DNA of 50,633 bases, from NCBI GenBank assembly GCA_946493765.1, contig CAMMAZ010000011.1, positions 1 to 50,633 on the forward strand, read 5' to 3'. Positions within the stretch are counted from its first letter, which is position 1. Every line of letters starts with the position of its first letter. Below the pieces are notes generated by a model. The model searched no databases. It worked only from the letters and a program-made list of their open reading frames with translations, and was not told the DNA's origin. This stretch comes from an uncultured Clostridia bacterium. Its GTDB lineage: Bacteria; Bacillota; Clostridia; Oscillospirales; Acutalibacteraceae. Both the position numbers and the translations under genes were made by a program. Positions 1,750-13,285 of this stretch are shown piece after piece.

Positions 1750-1778
1750 TTGACAAAAAATGACCCTTATGCTAAAAT
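1750..1778 (+). promoter_or_regulatory. Promoter of the purine operon
   Basis: Perfect -35 TTGACA (1750-1755), 17-base spacer, -10 TAAAAT (1773-1778). It lies about 250 bases before purE, leaving room for the riboswitch leader that follows. Confidence 0.8.
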
Positions 1779-1794
1779 AAAAACACAATTGGAT

Positions 1795-1868
1795 ATTTCC
1801 CATATAAGCCTGCAAATAGGGTGCGGGCGTCTCTATGCGGCGGCCGTAAACCGCCTTGCGCTATGGAA
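1795..1868 (+). promoter_or_regulatory. Purine riboswitch aptamer, guanine type
   Basis: The element has the three-way junction order of the xpt-type purine aptamer. P1 is TTTCC..CA (from 1796) with TGGAAA (1864-1869); J1/2 is TATAA (1803-1807). P2 is GCCTGCA (1808-1814) with TGCGGGC (1822-1828), and its 7-base loop AATAGGG supplies the GG that docks with L3. J2/3 is GTCTCTAT (1829-1836). P3 carries the invariant loop CCGTAAA (1844-1850) on a GGCGG/CCGCC stem. J3/1 contains GCTA (1860-1863), where the base matching position 74 is C1861, the guanine-specific choice; U51 is also kept. The unusual point is P3, whose 3' strand has two extra U residues (1856-1857). Guanine or hypoxanthine binding would be expected to turn the operon off. 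Confidence 0.85.
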
Positions 1869-1877
1869 AAAAGCAAA

Positions 1878-1919
1878 GCCGGATTTTAAGGTCCGGCATT
1901 TGGTGTTGTTTTGTTTTGC
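1878..1919 (+). terminator. Riboswitch-controlled attenuator terminator
   Basis: GCCGGA (1878-1883) pairs with TCCGGC (1892-1897), followed by a T-rich run to 1919. An alternative pairing of the P3 3' strand CCGCCTTGC (1851-1859) with GCAAAGCCGG (1873-1882) would sequester the terminator's 5' arm, so ligand-stabilised P3 should favour termination. The antiterminator is inferred from base pairing and has one C-C mismatch and a bulge. Confidence 0.65.
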
Positions 1920-2024
1920 AGTGGGTTTTTGCTGTGGACAATGTGGTTTTCAAGCGCAAAAGGTCATTTTGTTTTTATGCCTTGCAGCGCTTGTTTTTAT
2001 GTGGGGATGAAAGGAAGGATCAAC

Positions 2025-2507
2025 ATGAAAAAAGTTGCGGTTATCATGGGAAGCGACAGCGATCTGCCAAAGGTGCAGCCTGCCATTGATCAGCTGCGTG
2101 CGTTTGGCGTGCCGGTCGAGGCGCATGTTTTTTCCGCGCACCGGACACCGGAACAGGCGATCGCCTTTTCCAAAAATGCGGCGGAAAACGGGTTCGGCGT
2201 GATGATTGCGGCGGCCGGGAAGGCGGCGCATTTGGGCGGCGTTTTGGCAGCAAACACGATTTTGCCGGTGATCGGTATTCCGATCAAAGCCTCGGCATTA
2301 GAGGGAATGGACGCATTGTTATCCACCGTGCAGATGCCGGCGGGCATCCCGGTTGCAACCGTCGCGATCGACGGGGCGAAAAACGCCGCGATTCTGGCGG
2401 TGCAGATGCTGGCAATTGACGATGCTAAACTTGCGGACAAGCTTATGGAAATGCGCCGGCAGATGACACAAGAGGTTATCGAAAAGGATAAGAATTTAAA
2501 ATATTAA
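2025..2507 (+). CDS. purE: PurE, N5-carboxyaminoimidazole ribonucleotide mutase (or AIR carboxylase)
   Basis: This cytosolic enzyme forms CAIR in step 6 of de novo purine synthesis. The ATG at 2025 is used because AAAGGAAGG precedes it by six bases; the longer open frame from 1911 lies in the riboswitch leader. The 160 residues are typical of a single-domain PurE: MGSDSD (8-13) binds the phosphate, SAHRTPE carries the catalytic His, and [14 protein letters not shown] followed by [16 protein letters not shown] are the family core. The SAHRTP motif is of the class I (mutase) kind, which normally needs PurK to supply N5-CAIR. No purK is in the operon or elsewhere in this window, so either purK is remote or the enzyme is fed by non-enzymatic carboxylation at high CO2. 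It is the first gene of the operon. Confidence 0.93.
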
Positions 2508-2539: not shown

Positions 2540-3250
2540 ATGAAAAAGATGGAACAGCTTTATGAAGGCAAAGCCAAAAAGGTGTTTGCAACCGACGACC
2601 CGAATTATTGCATCGTGGATTATAAAGACGATGCAACCGCGTTCAACGGCCAGAAAAAAGGCACGATTGCCGGCAAAGGCGTGATCAACAACCGCGTGAC
2701 CAACCTTTTGATGAAGATGTTGGAAGAAAAAGGGATCCCGACGCATTTTGTGGAAGAAATCTCCAATCGTGAAACGATCGTGAAAAAAGTGACGATTGTG
2801 CCGCTGGAAGTGATTGTCCGCAACATTGCGGCGGGTTCTTTGTCGAAACGCTTAGGACTGCCGGAAGGCACCAAACTGAAAAAGACCGTTTTGGAATTCT
2901 CTTATAAAGACGATGATCTCGGCGATCCGATGGTCAACGACTATCACATTTTCGCTATGGAGCTGGCGACGCCGGAAGAACTCAAAACCATTTCCGACAT
3001 GGCGCTGAAAGTCAACGATATCTTAACGGAATACTTCAAACATATCAACATTGAACTGGTGGATTTCAAGCTGGAATTCGGCAAAACAACCAGTGGGGAA
3101 ATTGTCCTGGCGGACGAAATTTCTCCCGATACCTGCCGTTTTTGGGATGCAACAACCCACGAAAAGCTGGATAAAGACCGGTTCCGCCGGGATCTCGGCC
3201 ATGTGGAAGACGCTTACAAGGAAATCATGAAACGCCTGATGGGCGAATAA
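2540..3250 (+). CDS. purC: PurC, SAICAR synthetase
   Basis: It joins aspartate to CAIR with ATP to give SAICAR, step 7 of purine synthesis. Its 236 residues match the short bacterial form with no fusion. Visible family motifs are [10 protein letters not shown] near the N-terminus (ATP loop), [16 protein letters not shown] (about 93-108, substrate phosphate contacts) and [12 protein letters not shown] (about 193-204). The start has AAAGGA eleven bases upstream. It follows purE by 32 bases in the same operon and precedes purF by 84 bases. That 84-base gap contains a GC-rich GCCGCGCGCGGCG-like palindrome but no T run, so it is probably not a terminator. Confidence 0.96.
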
Positions 3251-3334: not shown

Positions 3335-4777
3335 ATGTTTAATTCCATTCATGAAGAATGCGGCGTTTTTGCTGTTTTTAACAACGATAAAGAAGAAATC
3401 AATGCTGCTGCAAGCACCTATTTCGGACTGTATGCTTTGCAGCACAGAGGGCAGGAAAGCTGCGGTATTGCAGTAAACGACGATGGCGTGATCTCCTGCC
3501 ACCGGGACGTGGGACTGGTTTCGGACGTGTTTAAAAAAGAAACGCTCGAAAAGCTGTCCGGCAACGACATGGCGATCGGTCATGTGCGGTACAGCACGAC
3601 CGGCGAAAAGCAGCGTTCCAATGCGCAGCCGGTGGTCGTCAATCACCACAAGGGTTCCATGGCGCTTGCGCATAACGGCAATCTGACCAATTCCTTTGAA
3701 CTGCGCCGTGAGCTGGAACTGTCCGGTGCGATCTTCCATTCCACCAGCGACACCGAAGTGATCGCCTATGAGATCACCAAAAACCGTTTGCAGTCCAAAT
3801 CGATCGAGGAAGCGGTCTGCAAGACGATGGGAACGCTCAAAGGCGCATATTCGCTGGTGATCATGTCACCGTCCAAACTCATGGCGGTGCGCGACCCTTA
3901 TGGGTTCCGTCCGCTTTGCATCGGTAAACTCAAAAACAGCTATCTGTTCGCATCGGAAACCTGTGCGCTCGACAGCGTCGGCGCGCAGTATGTCCGCGAC
4001 GTTGAACCGGGCGAGATCGTCGTTGTGGATGAAAACGGTCTGCGTTCCATCAAAGATAACTGCACCGGAAAATCCGGCATGTGCGTGTTTGAATTTATCT
4101 ATTTTGCGCGTCCCGACTCGCGGATGGACGGCAGCTCGGTGCATGAAGCGCGTAAACGCGCAGGCATGTATTTGGCGCTGGAACATCCGGTCAATGCGGA
4201 TGTGGTGATCGGCGTTCCTGATTCCGGACTGGATGCGGCGATCGGCTTCTCGGAGGCTTCCGGCATTCCCTATGAGATCGGGTTTGTCAAAAACAAATAT
4301 ATCGGCCGGACCTTTATCCAGCCGACCCAGACCGACCGTGAAAACCAGGTGAAAATCAAACTGAATCCCGTGGATTCGGTGGTGAAAGGCAAACGCGTCG
4401 TCATGGTCGACGATTCCATCGTGCGCGGCACCACCTGCGCCAGAATCGTGCGGCTGCTGCGCGCTGCCGGCGCAAAGGAAGTGCACATGCGCGTTTCCGC
4501 GCCGCCCTTTAAATTTCCCTGCTATTTCGGAACGGATATCGATAACAAAGAAAGTCTGATCGCCAACAACCACAGCATCGAAGAGATCGCGAAAATCATC
4601 GGCGCAGACTCGCTCGGCTATATCAGCGTGGAAAATGTGCAGAAAATTGCGAAAGACACAAAACTTTCCTTCTGTACCGGCTGCTTTACCGGAAAATATC
4701 CGGTCGATCCGCCGGAAAAAGCGGAAAAATCCAAATTCCTGTATAAAAAAGGGGAGGCAAAACGGCATGAACAGTAG
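3335..4777 (+). CDS. purF: PurF, amidophosphoribosyltransferase
   Basis: It converts PRPP and glutamine to phosphoribosylamine, the committed step. The first eight residues MFNSIHEE form a propeptide whose removal exposes Cys9 (CGVFAVF), the glutaminase nucleophile. The PRPP-binding motif [13 protein letters not shown] lies in the C-terminal half. The pair [11 protein letters not shown] (Cys about 447 and 450), together with CVFEF and CYFGTD cysteines, matches the 4Fe-4S ligands of the Bacillus enzyme, so this is the oxygen-labile, processed class, as expected for an anaerobe. Length 480 is normal. Its last 11 bases overlap the start of purM, suggesting translational coupling. Confidence 0.97.
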
Positions 4778-5792
4778 TTTCAGCGAAAGCTATAAAGCGG
4801 CCGGCGTGGACATCACAGCGGGCTACAGCGCAGTGCAGCTGATGAAAAAACATATTCAGCGCACCCACACCAGCGGTGTGGTATCGGATATCGGCGGGTT
4901 CGGCGGCCTGTTTGCCCCCGATATGACGGGGATGAAACAGCCGGTGCTGGTCAGCGGGACCGATGGCGTCGGCACCAAACTGAAAATCGCTTTTTTGATG
5001 GATAAACACGACACCGTCGGCATCGATTGCGTGGCCATGTGCGTCAACGATATTGTCTGCTGCGGCGCACAGCCGTTGTTTTTCCTGGATTATATCGCGC
5101 TTGGCAAAAATATTCCGGAAAAGGTGGCGCAGATCGTCTCCGGCGTCGCGGAAGGATGCGTGCAGTCCGGCTGCGCTTTGATCGGCGGGGAAACTGCCGA
5201 AATGCCCGGCTTTTATCCGGAGGATGAATATGACCTGGCGGGATTTTCCGTCGGCATGGTGGATAAAGAAAAGGTGTTCGACGCATCAAGTATCACTGCG
5301 GGAGACGTGCTGATCGCGCTGAAATCCTCCGGCGTGCATTCCAACGGCTTTTCGCTGGTGCGCAAGGTGTTCGATGTGGAAAACAAGGATTTGAACGTCT
5401 ATTCCGATGAACTTTCAAAAACGCTGGGCGAAGAACTGCTCACCCCGACTAAAATTTATGTCAAAGACATCATGGCGCTCAAGGAAAAGGTGAAAATCAA
5501 ATCCGTTTCCCATATCACCGGCGGCGGATTCTATGAAAATATTCCGCGCAGCATCCCGCAGGGGTATTGTGCGAAGATCGAGAAAAAAGCCGTGCAGGTG
5601 CTGCCGGTTTTCAATCTGCTGCAAAAGCAGGGCAACATCCCGGAACGCGACATGTTCAATACCTACAATATGGGCGTCGGCATGTGCGTGATCGTCGCCA
5701 AGGAAGACGCCGACACGGCGCTGTCGGTTTTGCAGGACAGCTACATTTTAGGCGAAATCGTCAAAGGCGAGCACGGGGTGGAATTATGCTAA
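4767..5792 (+). CDS. purM: PurM, phosphoribosylformylglycinamidine cyclo-ligase (AIR synthetase)
   Basis: It closes the imidazole ring of FGAM with ATP to give AIR, step 5. The ATG at 4767 is chosen because GGGGAGG stands nine bases before it inside the end of purF; the 341 residues then begin [16 protein letters not shown], as in the family. [14 protein letters not shown] (about 68-81) is the ATP/phosphate loop, followed by the [10 protein letters not shown] segment, [13 protein letters not shown] and [13 protein letters not shown]. PurM is related in fold to PurL. It overlaps purF by 11 bases and purN by 7 bases. Confidence 0.97.
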
Positions 5793-6406
5793 AACGCAAG
5801 GTAGCGGTTTTGGTCAGCGGCGGCGGCACGAACCTGCAGGCGCTGATCGACGCGCAAAACGACGGACGCATCAGCGATGGGGAAATCACGCTTGTGGTTT
5901 CCAACAAAAGCGACGCCTATGCGCTGACCCGTGCAAAGGAAAACGGCATTGAAAGCCTGTTTATCCAAAAGGACAAGGATTTTGAAAACAATTTGATCAC
6001 AGCGCTTGCGGCACATCAGATCGACCTGATCGTGCTCGCGGGCTTTTTGGTGATTTTAAGCGAAGATTTTGTGCGGCGTTTTGCCGGCAGGATCATCAAC
6101 ATTCATCCGTCGTTGATACCGTCTTTTTGCGGCGACGGATTTTATGGTTTAAAGGTGCATAAAGCGGCTCTGGCACGCGGTGTCAAAGTGACCGGGGCGA
6201 CGGTGCATTTTGTCAACGAAATCACCGACGGCGGTGAGATCATCCTGCAAAAAGCGGTTGCAGTGGAAGAGGGGGACACGCCCGAAACGCTGCAAAAGCG
6301 CGTGATGCAGCAAGCAGAATGGGTGATTTTGCCGCAGGCGGTACAAAAGGTATGCAGCGAATGGAACAAAGCATGCGATTCACAAGGAAAGGAAATGAAA
6401 CAATGA
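5786..6406 (+). CDS. purN: PurN, phosphoribosylglycinamide formyltransferase (10-formyl-THF dependent)
   Basis: It transfers the formyl group from 10-formyltetrahydrofolate to GAR, step 3. The ATG at 5786 overlaps the purM stop by 7 bases; the 206 residues start [20 protein letters not shown], the expected phosphate-binding N-terminus. [10 protein letters not shown] contains the catalytic Asn and His, and the [11 protein letters not shown] segment contains the catalytic Asp. The formyl donor it uses is made by the fhs product in this window (22451-24127). In many Clostridia purH would follow; here purD starts immediately with an ATGA overlap. Confidence 0.96.
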
Positions 6407-7665
6407 AGATTTTGGTTGTCGGCGGCGGCGGACGGGAACACACAATTATTAAAAAAATCAAAGAGAATCCGGCGGTTTCGGAAATCTTCGCGCTGCCGGG
6501 TAACGGCGGCATTGCGATGGATGCGACCTGTGTGCCGATCAAAGCGACGGACATTGACGGGATCACAAAATTCGCCGTCGATCACAAAATCGATTTTGCA
6601 GTCGTCGCACCCGACGACCCGCTGGTGCTCGGCGCGGTAGACCGGCTGCACGAAAAAGGCATTCCCTGTTTCGGACCGGAATCCAAAGCGGCGATCATCG
6701 AGGGCAGCAAGGTGTTCTCCAAAAACCTGATGCAAAAATATAATATTCCGACCGCGCGGTATGCAGTGTTCGACGATCCGCAAAAAGCGCTTTTGTATCT
6801 TGAGACCAGTGATTATCCGATCGTTGTCAAAGCAGATGGGCTGGCGCTCGGCAAAGGCGTGATCATCGCGCAGGATTTTGCCGCCGCGAAAGAAGCGGTG
6901 CATTCCATCATGGAAGATAAAATTTTCGGTGCGTCGGGGGCTAACATCGTCATCGAGGAATTTTTAACAGGTCCCGAAGTCTCGGTTTTGTGCTTTACCG
7001 ACGGCGAGACCATCAAACCGATGGTGTCTTCCATGGATCACAAGCGCGCGCTGACCGGGGACAAGGGGCTCAACACCGGCGGGATGGGCACCATAGCGCC
7101 GAATCCCTATTACACAAAGGAAATCGAAAAGGTCTGCATGGAAACCATCTTCTTGCCGACCGTGCAGGCGATGAATAAGGAAAACAGAACCTTTAAGGGC
7201 TGCTTGTATTTTGGTCTGATGCTGACAAAGGACGGCCCGAAGGTGATCGAATACAACTGCCGTTTCGGCGATCCGGAAACACAGGTTGTGCTGCCGCTTT
7301 TAAAAAGCGATCTGTTGACCATCATGCAAAGCGTTGAAAACGGCACGCTGGCGGACACGCCGGTCGAATTTGACGACAAATGTGCGGCGTGCGTTGTGGA
7401 AGCGTCGGGCGGATACCCGAAAAGCTACCAGACCGGCTATGCGATCCAGTTCGGCGATCTTGATCCGGACGTGCTGGTCATTCACGCGGGCACCAAAAAG
7501 CAAGGGGACAAAATCCTGACTGCGGGCGGCCGGGTGCTGTCTGTGACGGCAACGGCCGATACTTTGAAAGCCGCGGTGGAAAAAGCCTACCGCAACATTG
7601 AAAAGATCACCTTTCAAGACGAATATCACCGGACGGATATCGGGAAAAGGGCATTGGAAGTTTAA
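6403..7665 (+). CDS. purD: PurD, phosphoribosylamine-glycine ligase (GAR synthetase)
   Basis: An ATP-grasp ligase that joins glycine to phosphoribosylamine, step 2. The start ATG at 6403 overlaps the purN stop (ATGA), with AAGGAAAGGA upstream. The 420 residues begin [15 protein letters not shown], the usual Rossmann-like N domain. The ATP-grasp region is seen as IVVKADGLALGKGVI, and the C-terminal half contains GMGTIAPNPYY and EYNCRFGDPETQ (Mg/ATP and substrate contacts). The length is normal and no fusion to purM or purN is present. It is followed by purL after 23 bases. Confidence 0.97.
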   Translation: MKILVVGGGGREHTIIKKIKENPAVSEIFALPGNGGIAMDATCVPIKATDIDGITKFAVDHKIDFAVVAPDDPLVLGAVDRLHEKGIPCFGPESKAAIIEGSKVFSKNLMQKYNIPTARYAVFDDPQKALLYLETSDYPIVVKADGLALGKGVIIAQDFAAAKEAVHSIMEDKIFGASGANIVIEEFLTGPEVSVLCFTDGETIKPMVSSMDHKRALTGDKGLNTGGMGTIAPNPYYTKEIEKVCMETIFLPTVQAMNKENRTFKGCLYFGLMLTKDGPKVIEYNCRFGDPETQVVLPLLKSDLLTIMQSVENGTLADTPVEFDDKCAACVVEASGGYPKSYQTGYAIQFGDLDPDVLVIHAGTKKQGDKILTAGGRVLSVTATADTLKAAVEKAYRNIEKITFQDEYHRTDIGKRALEV

Positions 7666-7688: not shown

Positions 7689-10600
7689 ATGGTCTACAGG
7701 GTTTATGTTGAAAAGAAAAAGGGACTTGAAAACGAGGCAAATGCGCTTTTAAATGAAATCAACACCCAGCTGCTGATCCAATCGGTAGAAAGGGTGCGCC
7801 TTTTTAACCGGTATGACGTTGAGAATATTGAAAAAACGGATTTTGAAAACAGCATCAAAACGGTGTTTTCCGAGCCGCAGCTGGATAATGTGTCCGCATC
7901 TTTGCCGGAGACGGACGCTGCGGTGTTTGCGGTGGAATATCTGCCCGGTCAGTTCGACCAGCGCGCCGATTCTGCGGCGCAGTGCATCCAGATCATGACC
8001 CGCAAAGAACGCCCGACGGTGAAAACCGCCAAGGTTTACATGCTGTTCGGCAACGTATCCCAGGCGGAGCTGGAACGAATCAAAAAATATGTCATCAACC
8101 CGGTGGAAAGCCGGGAAGCGTCGTTAGAGCCGTTTGACACACTGGATATTCCGGTGGAAATGCCGGATCATGTGCAGACCCTCACCGGTTTTATCACGCT
8201 GGATGATAAAGCGCTTTCGGATTTGCAGCAAAAACTGTCGCTTGCGATGGATTTTGACGATATCAAATTCTGTCAGAATTATTTTAAAACCGAAGACCGC
8301 GACCCGACCATCACCGAAATTCGCATGATCGATACCTATTGGTCGGATCATTGCCGGCACACCACCTTTTTAACAACGATCGACGGCGTGACCTTTGAAG
8401 ATGCTATCCATCAAAACGCTTACGAGCGTTACGTGGACGCCCGCCGTGCAGTCAACCGGACCAAACCGGTCAATCTGATGGATTTGGCGACCATGGGCGC
8501 GCGGTATTTGAAAAGCAAAGGTCTGCTGCAAAAGCTGGACGAATCGGAAGAGATCAACGCCTGCACCGTTAAAATCGACGTCGATGTGGACGGAAAAACC
8601 GAAAAATGGCTGCTGCTGTTTAAAAACGAAACCCACAATCACCCGACGGAAATCGAACCGTTCGGCGGCGCGGCAACCTGTATCGGCGGTGCGATCCGCG
8701 ATCCGCTGTCCGGCAGAGCCTATGTCTATCAGGCGATGCGGGTGACCGGCGCGGCGAACCCGCTGGTCAGCGTGGCGGACACCATGCCCGGCAAACTTTC
8801 ACAGCGGAAAATCGTCACCACCGCCGCTGCGGGCTATAGCTCCTACGGCAACCAGATCGGTCTTGCAACCGGTCAGGTGGACGAAATCTATCATGAAGGC
8901 TACATGGCAAAACGCCTTGAGATCGGTGCGGTCGTCGGTGCGGCGCCGCAGGAAAATGTGCGCCGCGAAGTGCCCAATCCCGGCGATATTGTGATTTTGC
9001 TCGGCGGTCGGACCGGACGGGACGGCTGCGGCGGCGCGACCGGTTCTTCTAAATCCCACAGCATGGAATCATTGGAATCCTGCGGTGCGGAGGTGCAAAA
9101 AGGTAACGCGCCGGAAGAACGAAAATTGCAGCGACTGTTCCGCAACCCGGACGCGACAAAGCTGATCAAACGCTGCAACGATTTCGGCGCGGGCGGCGTG
9201 AGCGTCGCCATCGGCGAACTGGCGGACGGATTGGATATTGATTTAAACGCCGTTCCGAAAAAATATGAGGGACTCGACGGCACCGAGCTTGCCATTTCCG
9301 AATCGCAGGAAAGAATGGCGGTCGTCGTCGCGCCGGAGGATGCCGACGCATTTATTCGACTGGCGGACAGCGAAAACCTGGAAGCGACCGTCGTTGCCAA
9401 AGTCAAGGCCGAAAAGCGGCTGACAATGCGTTGGAACGGAAAAGACATCGTGAATATCACGCGGGAATTTTTAAATTCCAACGGTGCGGAAAAACACGTG
9501 AATATCACCATTGCAAAACCCGAATGCTATGCAAAACCGGCGGTTTCCGGCAGTTTTGCGCAAGAATATAAAAAATTGGCGGACGATTTAAACGTCTGCT
9601 CCAAACGCGGTCTGTCTGAACGGTTCGATTCCACCATCGGCGCAGGTTCGGTGCTCATGCCGTTCGGCGGCAAATACCAGATGACCCCTGCGCAGGTCAT
9701 GGCGGCGAAAATTCCGGTGGAAAAAGCGCAGACCGACACCTGTTCGGTCATGGCGTGGGGCTATAACCCGTTTATCACCGAAAAAAGCCCGTATCACGGG
9801 GCGTATCTCGCAGTGGTCGAATCAGTGGCAAAACTGGTCGCCTCCGGCGCGCCGCTGTCGGATTGCTACTTAACTTTCCAGGAATACTTTGAAAAGCCGA
9901 TGACCGATCCTAAACGCTGGGGGAAACCGCTGGCGGCGCTGCTCGGTGCGTTCGACGCACAGCTGGATTTTGGTTTTGCAGCGATCGGCGGCAAGGATTC
10001 CATGAGCGGAACCTTTGAGCATATCGACGTGCCGCCGACCCTTGTGTCTTTCGCGGTCACAGTGGCAAATGCAAAACAGATTTTGTCTCCGGAATTCAAA
10101 AAAGCCGGTTCCAAGGTCGTTTTGGTTTCTCCGGAATATAATGAAAAGCATCTGCCGGATCCCAAGAGCCAGCAAGCTGTTTTCAGCCAGGTGCACACGC
10201 TCATGGAAAGCGGCAAGGTCCTCTCGGCCTACACCCCGACCTACGGCGGTGTCGCCGAAGGCGTCATGAAAATGTGTTTTGGCAACCGGATCGGTTTTGC
10301 GTTTGCGGATGTTGCAAAAGAAAAACTGTTTTCCTATGCCTATGGTTCTTTCATTCTGGAGCTTAGCGAAGATGTGGATGTCGGTGTGCCGCTTGGCGTC
10401 ACAACGGGTGACTATGTCTTAACCTGCGGGGAAGAATCCGTTCGCTTGCAAGAGCTGGAAGATATTTATGAAAATAAACTTGAAAGCGTGTTTGCCTGCA
10501 ACATTAAACAACCAGAGCAGGAAATCAAAACGCTGAACTTCAATTGTGAGAAACGCGTTGCGCCGAAAATCGGCGTTGCAAAGCCTAAAGTACTGATTCC

Positions 10601-11381
10601 GGTGTTCCCCGGCACCAACTGTGAATATGACACCGCAAAACGTCTGCTGCTGGCAGGCGCGCAGCCGGACATCATGGTGATCAACAACCTGTCGGCACAG
10701 CATGTTGCGGAATCGGTCGAAGCGTTTGCTAAAAAGGTCAATGAAGCGCAGATCATTTTTGTGCCCGGCGGTTTTTCCGGCGGCGACGAGCCGGACGGTT
10801 CCGGCAAATTCATCACTGCGTTTTTCCGCAATCCGGTGATTCGGGAAAACGTCAATAACCTGCTCAAAAACAGGGACGGGCTGATGTGCGGTATCTGCAA
10901 TGGTTTCCAGGCGCTGATCAAATTGGGACTTTTGCCGTTCGGGGAGATTATCGACACCGATGAAAACTGCCCGACGCTGACCTATAATATCATCGGCCGG
11001 CACCAGTCCAGACTGGTGCGCACACGGATCGCATCCAACAAATCGCCCTGGCTTGCGGCGACAACCCCCGGTGCGGTCTACACAGTGCCGATCTCGCACG
11101 GCGAAGGCCGGTTTATCTGCCCGCCGGATTTATATGAAAAGCTGGCGGCAAACGGTCAGATCGCAACACAGTATGTGGATTTGGACGGTAATGCCTCAAC
11201 CGATATCCATTTCAATCCCAACGGTTCCTACCAGGCGGTGGAGGGCATCACCTCCGCGGACGGCCGGATCTTAGGTAAAATGGGACACAGTGAACGCATT
11301 GATTCCAACCTGTATAAAAACGTATCAGGCGATTATGATATGCATCTGTTTGAATCCGCCGTTCGGTATTTTGCCATTTAA
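7689..11381 (+). CDS. purL: PurL, phosphoribosylformylglycinamidine synthase, single-chain form
   Basis: It converts FGAR to FGAM with ATP and glutamine, step 4. At 1230 residues this is the single-chain form typical of Clostridia and related anaerobes, not the PurS/PurQ/PurL complex of Bacillus. An N-terminal PurS-like part (about 1-160) is followed by the tandem AIR-synthase-like halves, with THNHPTEIEPFGGAA in the first ATP site, and a C-terminal class I glutaminase (about 970-1230). The glutaminase has the VPGGFSGGD oxyanion segment, the nucleophile in GICNGFQ and the His/Glu of PISHGEGRF. The start ATG has GGAAAGGATGG upstream. It is the last gene of the operon, and a very strong hairpin follows. 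Confidence 0.97.
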   Translation: MVYRVYVEKKKGLENEANALLNEINTQLLIQSVERVRLFNRYDVENIEKTDFENSIKTVFSEPQLDNVSASLPETDAAVFAVEYLPGQFDQRADSAAQCIQIMTRKERPTVKTAKVYMLFGNVSQAELERIKKYVINPVESREASLEPFDTLDIPVEMPDHVQTLTGFITLDDKALSDLQQKLSLAMDFDDIKFCQNYFKTEDRDPTITEIRMIDTYWSDHCRHTTFLTTIDGVTFEDAIHQNAYERYVDARRAVNRTKPVNLMDLATMGARYLKSKGLLQKLDESEEINACTVKIDVDVDGKTEKWLLLFKNETHNHPTEIEPFGGAATCIGGAIRDPLSGRAYVYQAMRVTGAANPLVSVADTMPGKLSQRKIVTTAAAGYSSYGNQIGLATGQVDEIYHEGYMAKRLEIGAVVGAAPQENVRREVPNPGDIVILLGGRTGRDGCGGATGSSKSHSMESLESCGAEVQKGNAPEERKLQRLFRNPDATKLIKRCNDFGAGGVSVAIGELADGLDIDLNAVPKKYEGLDGTELAISESQERMAVVVAPEDADAFIRLADSENLEATVVAKVKAEKRLTMRWNGKDIVNITREFLNSNGAEKHVNITIAKPECYAKPAVSGSFAQEYKKLADDLNVCSKRGLSERFDSTIGAGSVLMPFGGKYQMTPAQVMAAKIPVEKAQTDTCSVMAWGYNPFITEKSPYHGAYLAVVESVAKLVASGAPLSDCYLTFQEYFEKPMTDPKRWGKPLAALLGAFDAQLDFGFAAIGGKDSMSGTFEHIDVPPTLVSFAVTVANAKQILSPEFKKAGSKVVLVSPEYNEKHLPDPKSQQAVFSQVHTLMESGKVLSAYTPTYGGVAEGVMKMCFGNRIGFAFADVAKEKLFSYAYGSFILELSEDVDVGVPLGVTTGDYVLTCGEESVRLQELEDIYENKLESVFACNIKQPEQEIKTLNFNCEKRVAPKIGVAKPKVLIPVFPGTNCEYDTAKRLLLAGAQPDIMVINNLSAQHVAESVEAFAKKVNEAQIIFVPGGFSGGDEPDGSGKFITAFFRNPVIRENVNNLLKNRDGLMCGICNGFQALIKLGLLPFGEIIDTDENCPTLTYNIIGRHQSRLVRTRIASNKSPWLAATTPGAVYTVPISHGEGRFICPPDLYEKLAANGQIATQYVDLDGNASTDIHFNPNGSYQAVEGITSADGRILGKMGHSERIDSNLYKNVSGDYDMHLFESAVRYFAI

Positions 11382-11441: not shown

Positions 11442-11848
11442 TCATGTGCGAAAACATTTTTTGCAGGGGGAGTAGCCTTCGTTTTGCGCATCTTCCAGTG
11501 AAATCGCGTGCTGCTTACTCTGCCGCAGATATTGGCAGCCGTCCCTGTGATATTTTTCGCCGGTGTCGGTGATATAAACAATGTCCGACAGGGGGTCTGC
11601 ATCCGTTTCGGCAGCCACCGTCGAAACCGCTTGCGTTTGAGATTTCGTGGTTGTGTCTACTTGCGGTGAATCGCTTGTGTAGTCATAACCTGCGTTTTCT
11701 TCTGCAAGGAATAGATTTTGTGCCGGTGAAGTGCTGACTTTTTGCGTATCATCCACTGAAATGTTAACATTGTTGTTTTCACATGCTGGTAAAAATAAAA
11801 TAGAAGAAAGAAAAATATTTTGTGCCCAAAAAGTAAAGAATAGGACAC
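11442..11848 (-). pseudogene. Frameshifted copy of the Cys-rich lipoprotein gene
   Basis: The intact frame (11442-11756) encodes a C-terminal part nearly identical to the lipoprotein at 12823-13269: the FLAEENAGYDYTSDSP block, then a Thr/Ser-rich linker and the YHRDGCQYLR...GYSPCKKCF domain. Upstream, the same frame continues through ILFLPAC, a lipobox-like end of a signal peptide, but reaches a stop with no ATG or GTG. A GTG at 11848 opens the neighbouring frame (SYSLLFGHKIFF), and a one-base shift in the T5 tract near 11812-11816 would join it to the lipobox. The simplest reading is a recent copy broken by a single indel; programmed slippage or a sequencing error is possible. It ends with FRT after the last Cys pair instead of stopping at F. 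Confidence 0.6.
11451..11717 (-). repeat. Direct repeat, copy 1 (lipoprotein 3' half)
   Basis: This stretch is over 90% identical by eye to 12826-13089 in the same orientation. It differs by scattered substitutions and one 3-base insertion that adds a Gln (KQHA instead of KHA). The repeats enclose both XRE genes and the palindromic element, so recombination between them would delete or amplify about 1.4 kb. Confidence 0.85.
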
Positions 11849-12822: not shown

Positions 12823-13269
12823 TTAAAAACATTTTTTACAGGGGGTGTAGCCTTCGTTTTGCGCGTCTTCAAGTGAAATCGCGTGCTTGCTCTGCCGCAG
12901 ATACTGGCAGCCGTCCCTGTGATATTTTTCGCCGGTGTCGGTGATATAAACGATTTCCGACAGGGAGTCTGCGTCCGTTTCGGCAGCCACCGTCGAAATC
13001 GCTTGCGTTTGAGATTTCGTGGTCGTGTCTATTCGCGGTGAATCGCTTGTGTAGTCATATCCTGCATTTTCTTCTGCAAGGAATAAATCCTCCAACGGCG
13101 TTTTTAAAACGGATTGTTTTTGCGTTTGTGCCGTTGTCGAAACGGTTGTATCATCGGCAATGCCTATCGCGGTTGTGGTGTTACTGTCTGGCTGTGGGTT
13201 GTCCGTTGTGCAGGCAGAGGAAAGAACAAGCACACAGGCTGCCAACAGCAGCGCAAGATATTTTTTCAT
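12823..13269 (-). CDS. Lipoprotein with C-terminal His/Cys metal-binding-like domain, 148 aa
   Basis: A probable surface lipoprotein. The ATG at 13269 is chosen over ATG 13275 because GGTG stands six bases before it. Residues 1-20 (MKKYLALLLAACVLVLSSAC) are a lipoprotein signal peptide with lipobox LSSAC. A Thr/Ser/Gln-rich linker (about 21-100) follows, then a small C-terminal domain: YITDTGEKYHRDGCQYLR, and GYTPCKKCF at the end. The spacing His-x3-Cys ... Cys-x2-Cys resembles the small zinc-binding module found at the ends of Ada-like and micrococcal-nuclease-like proteins, so zinc binding is likely but function is unknown. A broken near-copy sits at 11442-11848. Two identical dyad sites lie upstream of the gene, suggesting specific regulation. 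Confidence 0.8.
   Translation of the reverse strand: MKKYLALLLAACVLVLSSACTTDNPQPDSNTTTAIGIADDTTVSTTAQTQKQSVLKTPLEDLFLAEENAGYDYTSDSPRIDTTTKSQTQAISTVAAETDADSLSEIVYITDTGEKYHRDGCQYLRQSKHAISLEDAQNEGYTPCKKCF
12826..13089 (-). repeat. Direct repeat, copy 2 (lipoprotein 3' half)
   Basis: Partner of 11451-11717. Similarity stops abruptly just upstream of the FLAEENAG-coding block; the N-terminal parts of the two genes differ, so the duplication or gene conversion covered only the 3' half, or the 5' half of copy 1 was replaced. Confidence 0.85.
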
Positions 13270-13285
13270 TTTCATCACCAACTAA

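Follow-up and report, generated by a model that had tools for sequence, protein, structure and literature searches.

A variant guanine-type purine riboswitch upstream of a purine biosynthesis operon in an uncultured Clostridia bacterium

Which ligand is bound by a purine riboswitch with altered joining regions, and with which hairpin does it switch? The question is raised by the leader of a purine biosynthesis operon in an uncultured gut member of the Acutalibacteraceae (assembly GCA_946493765.1). The window is the whole stretch of DNA that was analysed, 50,633 nucleotides of contig CAMMAZ010000011.1, and bases within the aptamer are given in xpt numbering. The RNA is a real feature, a variant of the guanine-type purine riboswitch, for which neither a shift in ligand nor the first downstream hairpin as the terminator is favored.

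Aptamer, promoter and operon

In the window, cmscan places a single riboswitch, a match to the purine model RF00167 at 1780–1883 (+) that scores 63.9 bits, well above the gathering score of 37 (E for the window, 6.5e-9). This is the search that the sequence-only reading had proposed as a check on its assignment of a guanine-type purine aptamer, and the score bears that assignment out. The alignment covers all 102 model positions, with two bases inserted on the 3′ side of P3. RF00167 is the best match of its clan at this position, one lower overlapping clan match having been dropped, and an RF00167 search of the 2.16 Mb genome returned this purine riboswitch only. The riboswitch sits downstream of a near-consensus promoter, from which transcription would start at about 1785, and upstream of purE-C-F-M-N-D-L.

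1750–1778 (+), sigma-70-type promoter, TTGACA-17-TAAAAT with TG before the −10 element (11/12 consensus matches)
1797–1869 (+), purine riboswitch aptamer with the P1, P2, P3 junction (RF00167, 63.9 bits; variant model R1)
1829–1836 (+), J2-3, GUCUCUAU, with U rather than C at position 53 and U47 and U51 kept (cmscan alignment; comparison set)
1837–1859 (+), P3 with L3 CCGUAAA and a UU bulge at 1856–1857 in its 3′ strand (cmscan insertion; 55–71 covariation)
1860–1861 (+), J3-1, comprising G73 (usually A) and C74, the ligand-pairing C (cmscan alignment; comparison set)
2025–2507 (+), purE (Pfam AIRC, 3.7e-61)
2540–3250 (+), purC (Pfam SAICAR_synt, 7e-94)
3335–4777 (+), purF (Pfam GATase and Pribosyltran)
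4767–5792 (+), purM (Pfam AIRS/AIRS_C)
5786–6406 (+), purN (Pfam Formyl_trans_N)
6403–7665 (+), purD (Pfam GARS_N/A/C)
7689–11381 (+), purL, a single long chain (Pfam GATase_5, AIRS_C, FGAR-AT_linker)

Elsewhere in the window, two closely similar short proteins with a YITDTGEKYHRDGCQYLRQSK motif, encoded at 11442–11756 and 12823–13281 (−), flank two small helix-turn-helix-like genes and are likely a local duplication.

P1 is formed by 1800–1804 and 1862–1866, with a C-A mismatch and two more pairs beyond, and P2 by 1808–1814 and 1822–1828, with AAUAGGG as L2. In P3, the pairs G54-C72 and C55-G71 are followed by the UU bulge and then by GGCGG/CCGCC. The departures from the consensus are U48C, C53U, G54-C72, C55-G71, the UU bulge and A73G; C53 and A73, both changed here, are conserved in most aptamers. 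The altered base before C74 and the two additional uridines in the P3 3′ strand had been pointed out earlier, and every sequence detail reported at that time is correct, including the seven bases of L2, although the weight placed on their number is misplaced, seven being the normal length (Rfam consensus AAUAUGG). The ligand contacts U22, U47, U51 and C74 are all retained in the cmscan alignment. The pyrimidine at position 74 distinguishes the guanine type (C) from the adenine type (U), and C74 at 1861 places this RNA in the guanine type. The CAUA of the P1 5′ strand (1801–1804) can also pair with UAUG of J2-3 (1834–1837), which is possible only with U53; this pairing is part of the predicted ensemble in most variant leaders, at a probability of at most about 0.56, and may serve as a lead.

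The combination of U53, G54-C72, bulge and G73 is no one-off. Among 300 genomes of the same family, 37 were positive in an RF00167 search, and two of these (L005 and L007) carry U53, G54-C72, a one-base bulge and G73. The same variant RNA was found in one genome of another family by a pattern search over the order, and a second was found by searching that family. Downstream of the L005 and L007 variants are a phosphoribosyltransferase gene (Pfam Pribosyltran, 9.8e-14) and a gene for an ABC-type ATPase, which by eye is ECF-like; downstream of the variants in the other family is purF. In a four-sequence alignment of the variants, 21/21 pairs hold in every row, and pair 55–71, just below the bulge, covaries between C-G and U-A, so that the lower two P3 pairs appear to be supported, by few sequences. 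Phage records contained no similar DNA, the variant pattern was not matched exactly in any viral contig, and a literature search for A73G with guanine riboswitch found no paper.

The predicted switching strand and the extra bases of P3

Downstream of the aptamer, the leader contains two hairpins and a stretch complementary to the aptamer 3′ side.

1856–1869 (+), predicted antiterminator 5′ strand, comprising the UU bulge, GC, G73, C74 and the P1 3′ strand (mean pair probability 0.80–0.87 for transcript ends 1962–2002)
1874–1901 (+), hairpin previously named as the terminator (pair probability 1.0 for all transcript ends from 1900; poor U-tract)
1947–1959 (+), antiterminator 3′ strand, overlapping the terminator 5′ arm (duplex −14.6 kcal/mol)
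1951–1998 (+), likely regulated intrinsic terminator, CAAGCGC...GCGCUUG (1951–1993) followed by UUUUU (−16.4 kcal/mol; shape read from sequence)

The switching hairpin is most likely the one at 1951–1993 with its five uridines, as judged by the folding; only 6/1000 shuffles fold as well as its −16.4 kcal/mol. It was missed by the terminator scan because its loop is longer than that scan allows, and it falls outside 1795–1919, the interval given previously. In the predicted antiterminator, 1856–1869 (UUGCGCU-A-UGGAAA) forms 13 pairs with 1947–1959 and leaves one bulged A, and in the folding of growing transcripts the range of 0.80–0.87 from 1962 to 2002 spans the U-tract. Without the bulge and the J3-1 part, the duplex keeps −3.2 of its −14.6 kcal/mol. 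A match of this strength to the terminator arm is rare, −14.6 kcal/mol being reached by 18/6939 other 19-base stretches; the best pairing of the aptamer 3′ strand anywhere along the linker has an ordinary energy, which 514/2000 shuffles reach. The earlier proposal that the P3 3′ strand can act as the antiterminator holds in that the predicted switching strand includes the 3′ part of P3, but not for the P3 helix itself, the strand running from the bulge through J3-1 into the P1 3′ strand. ViennaRNA has neither a ligand nor a loop–loop energy term, and the ligand-bound state is assumed in this folding.

In all five variant leaders (5/5), P1 is predicted to give way to pairing with sequence further downstream immediately before the 3′ arm of the terminator is transcribed, and all five look like OFF switches. 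In the two purF leaders, the predicted downstream pairing includes J3-1 and the bulge (0.96–0.97). In the two phosphoribosyltransferase leaders, only the P1 strand pairs downstream, and the extra base takes no or little part (0.00–0.15). Because these two leaders carry the extra base yet switch with the P1 strand alone, the bulge would be a property of the aptamer type that the purE and purF leaders, those of the synthesis operons, have put to use for switching.

The same comparison bears on whether the bulge is a mere by-product of selection on the antiterminator, with no role in the aptamer. The pairing of the extra bases in the antiterminators of the window and purF leaders is what such an origin would predict; the extra base of the phosphoribosyltransferase leaders, idle or nearly so in the antiterminator, weakens the idea of a bulge that exists only for this purpose. 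A search of 299 genomes of the phylum with the variant model yielded many aptamers extended on the 3′ side of P3, guanine-II-like and xanthine-II-like RNAs among them. Among 58 distinct parsed aptamers, a sample of related sequences picked by model score and for which counts are descriptive, 13 have extra bases on this side, and G or C is found at position 73 in 13/13 of these; among the aptamers with A73, 0/41 have them. This association points to junction geometry, and the by-product account is considered unlikely.

In other Firmicutes, bulged aptamers with G73 and U51 lie ahead of purE or of Xan_ur_permease-family genes (group L145, L152, L180 and L181, with purE in L145 and L152). This group shares U51, G73 and the extra 3′ bases with the window RNA and keeps C53 and C54 in place of the U53 and G54 of the window group. 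In L150 and L158 (around 1500–1575), close relatives of the variant retain C53, have a six-base L3 (CCUAUA) and lie ahead of permease-like genes. In L164 (around 1501–1577), a purine aptamer with C73 and a 3′ bulge (AUAGCCUA) is likewise ahead of a permease-like gene. L185 (around 1462–1538) combines U51 with a 10-base J2-3 and a six-base J3-1 (CUAGGC) ahead of a xanthine dehydrogenase-like gene, which places a guanine-type U51 in a purine-breakdown setting.

Ligand and relation to known purine riboswitch classes

The window RNA resembles guanine-I riboswitches (RF00167; Bacillus subtilis xpt type) in its three-way junction, its L2 and L3 sequences, the bases U22, U47, U51 and C74, and its OFF-type layout upstream of purine genes. 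The main differences are in the joining regions and P3: guanine-I RNAs have C53, A73 and no insertion as standard, whereas the window RNA has U53, G73, the G54-C72 pair and two more bases on the 3′ side, the UU bulge in P3.

Guanine-II RNAs, as described in PMC9295807, bind guanine at about 8 nM, keep U22, U51 and C74, and carry a J3-1 insertion. In the text of that paper, guanine-II combines U51 with a one-base J2-3 insertion and xanthine-II combines U51G with a two-base J2-3 insertion, with the J3-1 insertion present in both. One 6.4 Mb genome holds RNAs that were assigned from that text, rather than from the authors' alignment, to xanthine-II (G51; L174 ahead of an amidohydrolase gene by Pfam, and L176, whose downstream gene is dioxygenase-like by eye) and to guanine-II (L175, GUUUCUACA, followed by GGCAA...UUGCC and CCAGGC, ahead of a Pribosyltran-family gene by Pfam).

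Similar to guanine-II as described there and to L175, the window RNA keeps U51 and, with P3 drawn at 5 bp, has an insertion on the J3-1 side; L175 also has a G before C74. It differs in that its extra bases in J2-3 number zero or two depending on how P3 is drawn (two at 5 bp), not one, and in having UUGCGC in place of the CCAGGC of L175. Its setting also differs, being a synthesis operon with a predicted OFF switch, whereas guanine-II RNAs are associated with a phosphoribosyltransferase gene and are predicted to be ON switches in Paenibacillus (PMC9295807).

A pocket changed to bind xanthine, hypoxanthine or 2′-deoxyguanosine would account for the alteration of both C53 and A73, and with a 5-bp P3 the J2-3 of 10 nucleotides and J3-1 of six nucleotides are equal in length to those of the xanthine-II-like L174, L176 and L184. 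Yet xanthine-II RNAs (PMC9295807) have G51 and catabolic genes, whereas the window RNA has U51 and genes of purine synthesis, not breakdown. In addition, purE is also the gene downstream of bulged aptamers with G73 and U51 in two further lineages, L145 (AIRC, 5.5e-40) and L152 (purE recognised from the translation alone). A changed ligand is therefore rather improbable, and the shift in specificity suggested before, for example to 2′-deoxyguanosine, is not favored given the four retained contacts, the synthesis and salvage genes and guanine binding by the related guanine-II RNAs. Judged from the sequence, the ligand is most likely guanine.

The proposed switch and the history of the operon

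The RNA is probably a guanine-sensing OFF riboswitch, of a sub-type with 3′ extras in P3 and G73, which governs whether purE-C-F-M-N-D-L is transcribed. With guanine or close analogues in short supply, the strand 1856–1869 (bulge, J3-1 and P1 3′ side) would leave the aptamer and pair with 1947–1959, which would block the terminator at 1951–1993 and allow transcription to continue into purE. With guanine bound, the same strand would be held in P3, J3-1 and P1, the terminator would form, and the operon would be off. This model is favored because of the RF00167 match, the retention of U22, U47, U51 and C74, the variant upstream of purF and phosphoribosyltransferase genes, the antiterminator folding, the weakening of the duplex without the bulge and J3-1, and the binding of guanine by guanine-II RNAs. 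Counted against it are the predicted ON direction of guanine-II, the closest published class with such insertions (PMC9295807; Paenibacillus), the ordinary energy of the whole-linker duplex relative to shuffles, and the assumed bound state.

It is very improbable that the hairpin at 1874–1901 is instead the regulated terminator, as had been claimed: its arm GCAAAGC is complementary to GCCUUGC of the P3 3′ strand with one A-C mismatch, and a terminator-like hairpin is scored at 1878–1897, but in growing transcripts no upstream pairing competes with it once it is made, it does not compete with the aptamer, and its tail, AUUUGGUGUUG, has no U-run directly after the stem, unlike the hairpin with five uridines downstream. 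Being formed in every state and lacking a good U-tract, it is probably not a switch.

Control of the whole pur operon by the riboswitch, as first envisaged, would hold for purE-C-F-M-N-D-L and does not extend to the genes for IMP cyclohydrolase (PF07826) and AICAR transformylase (PF01808), purO-purH, which are located on another contig of the window genome behind a ZTP riboswitch.

643–727 (L190), ZTP riboswitch, contig C8 of the window genome (G000)
883–2682 (L194), IMP cyclohydrolase and AICAR transformylase gene pair, contig C8 of the window genome (G000)

In the congener G001, a ZTP riboswitch is followed by purE-C-F-M-N, then by the gene pair for IMP cyclohydrolase and AICAR transformylase, and finally by purD-L. 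A ZTP rather than a guanine riboswitch is found ahead of purE in three congeners (G001 and two others). Among the nearest 80 purE loci in named genomes, a ZTP riboswitch lies immediately upstream in 4/80 and a purine riboswitch in 0/80. A local replacement is thus the simplest reading of the guanine switch upstream of purE. It is conceivable, and proposed tentatively, that within Oscillospirales the RNAs with U53, G54-C72, bulge and G73 make up a guanine aptamer sub-class of their own, with a geometry between those of guanine-I and xanthine-II, and that their inserted junction bases also serve as the switching strand in the leaders of purE and purF. In this species, such an RNA would have taken the place of a ZTP ON-switch heading the purE operon when purO-purH left with a ZTP switch.

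Purine riboswitches are the classic example of how ligand specificity evolves on a single scaffold. The window group, with U51 kept and junction lengths of xanthine-II, is a natural setting for telling junction changes that alter the ligand from those that do not. With a ZTP or a guanine switch ahead of the same purE, relatives have riboswitches of opposite expected sign at one position.
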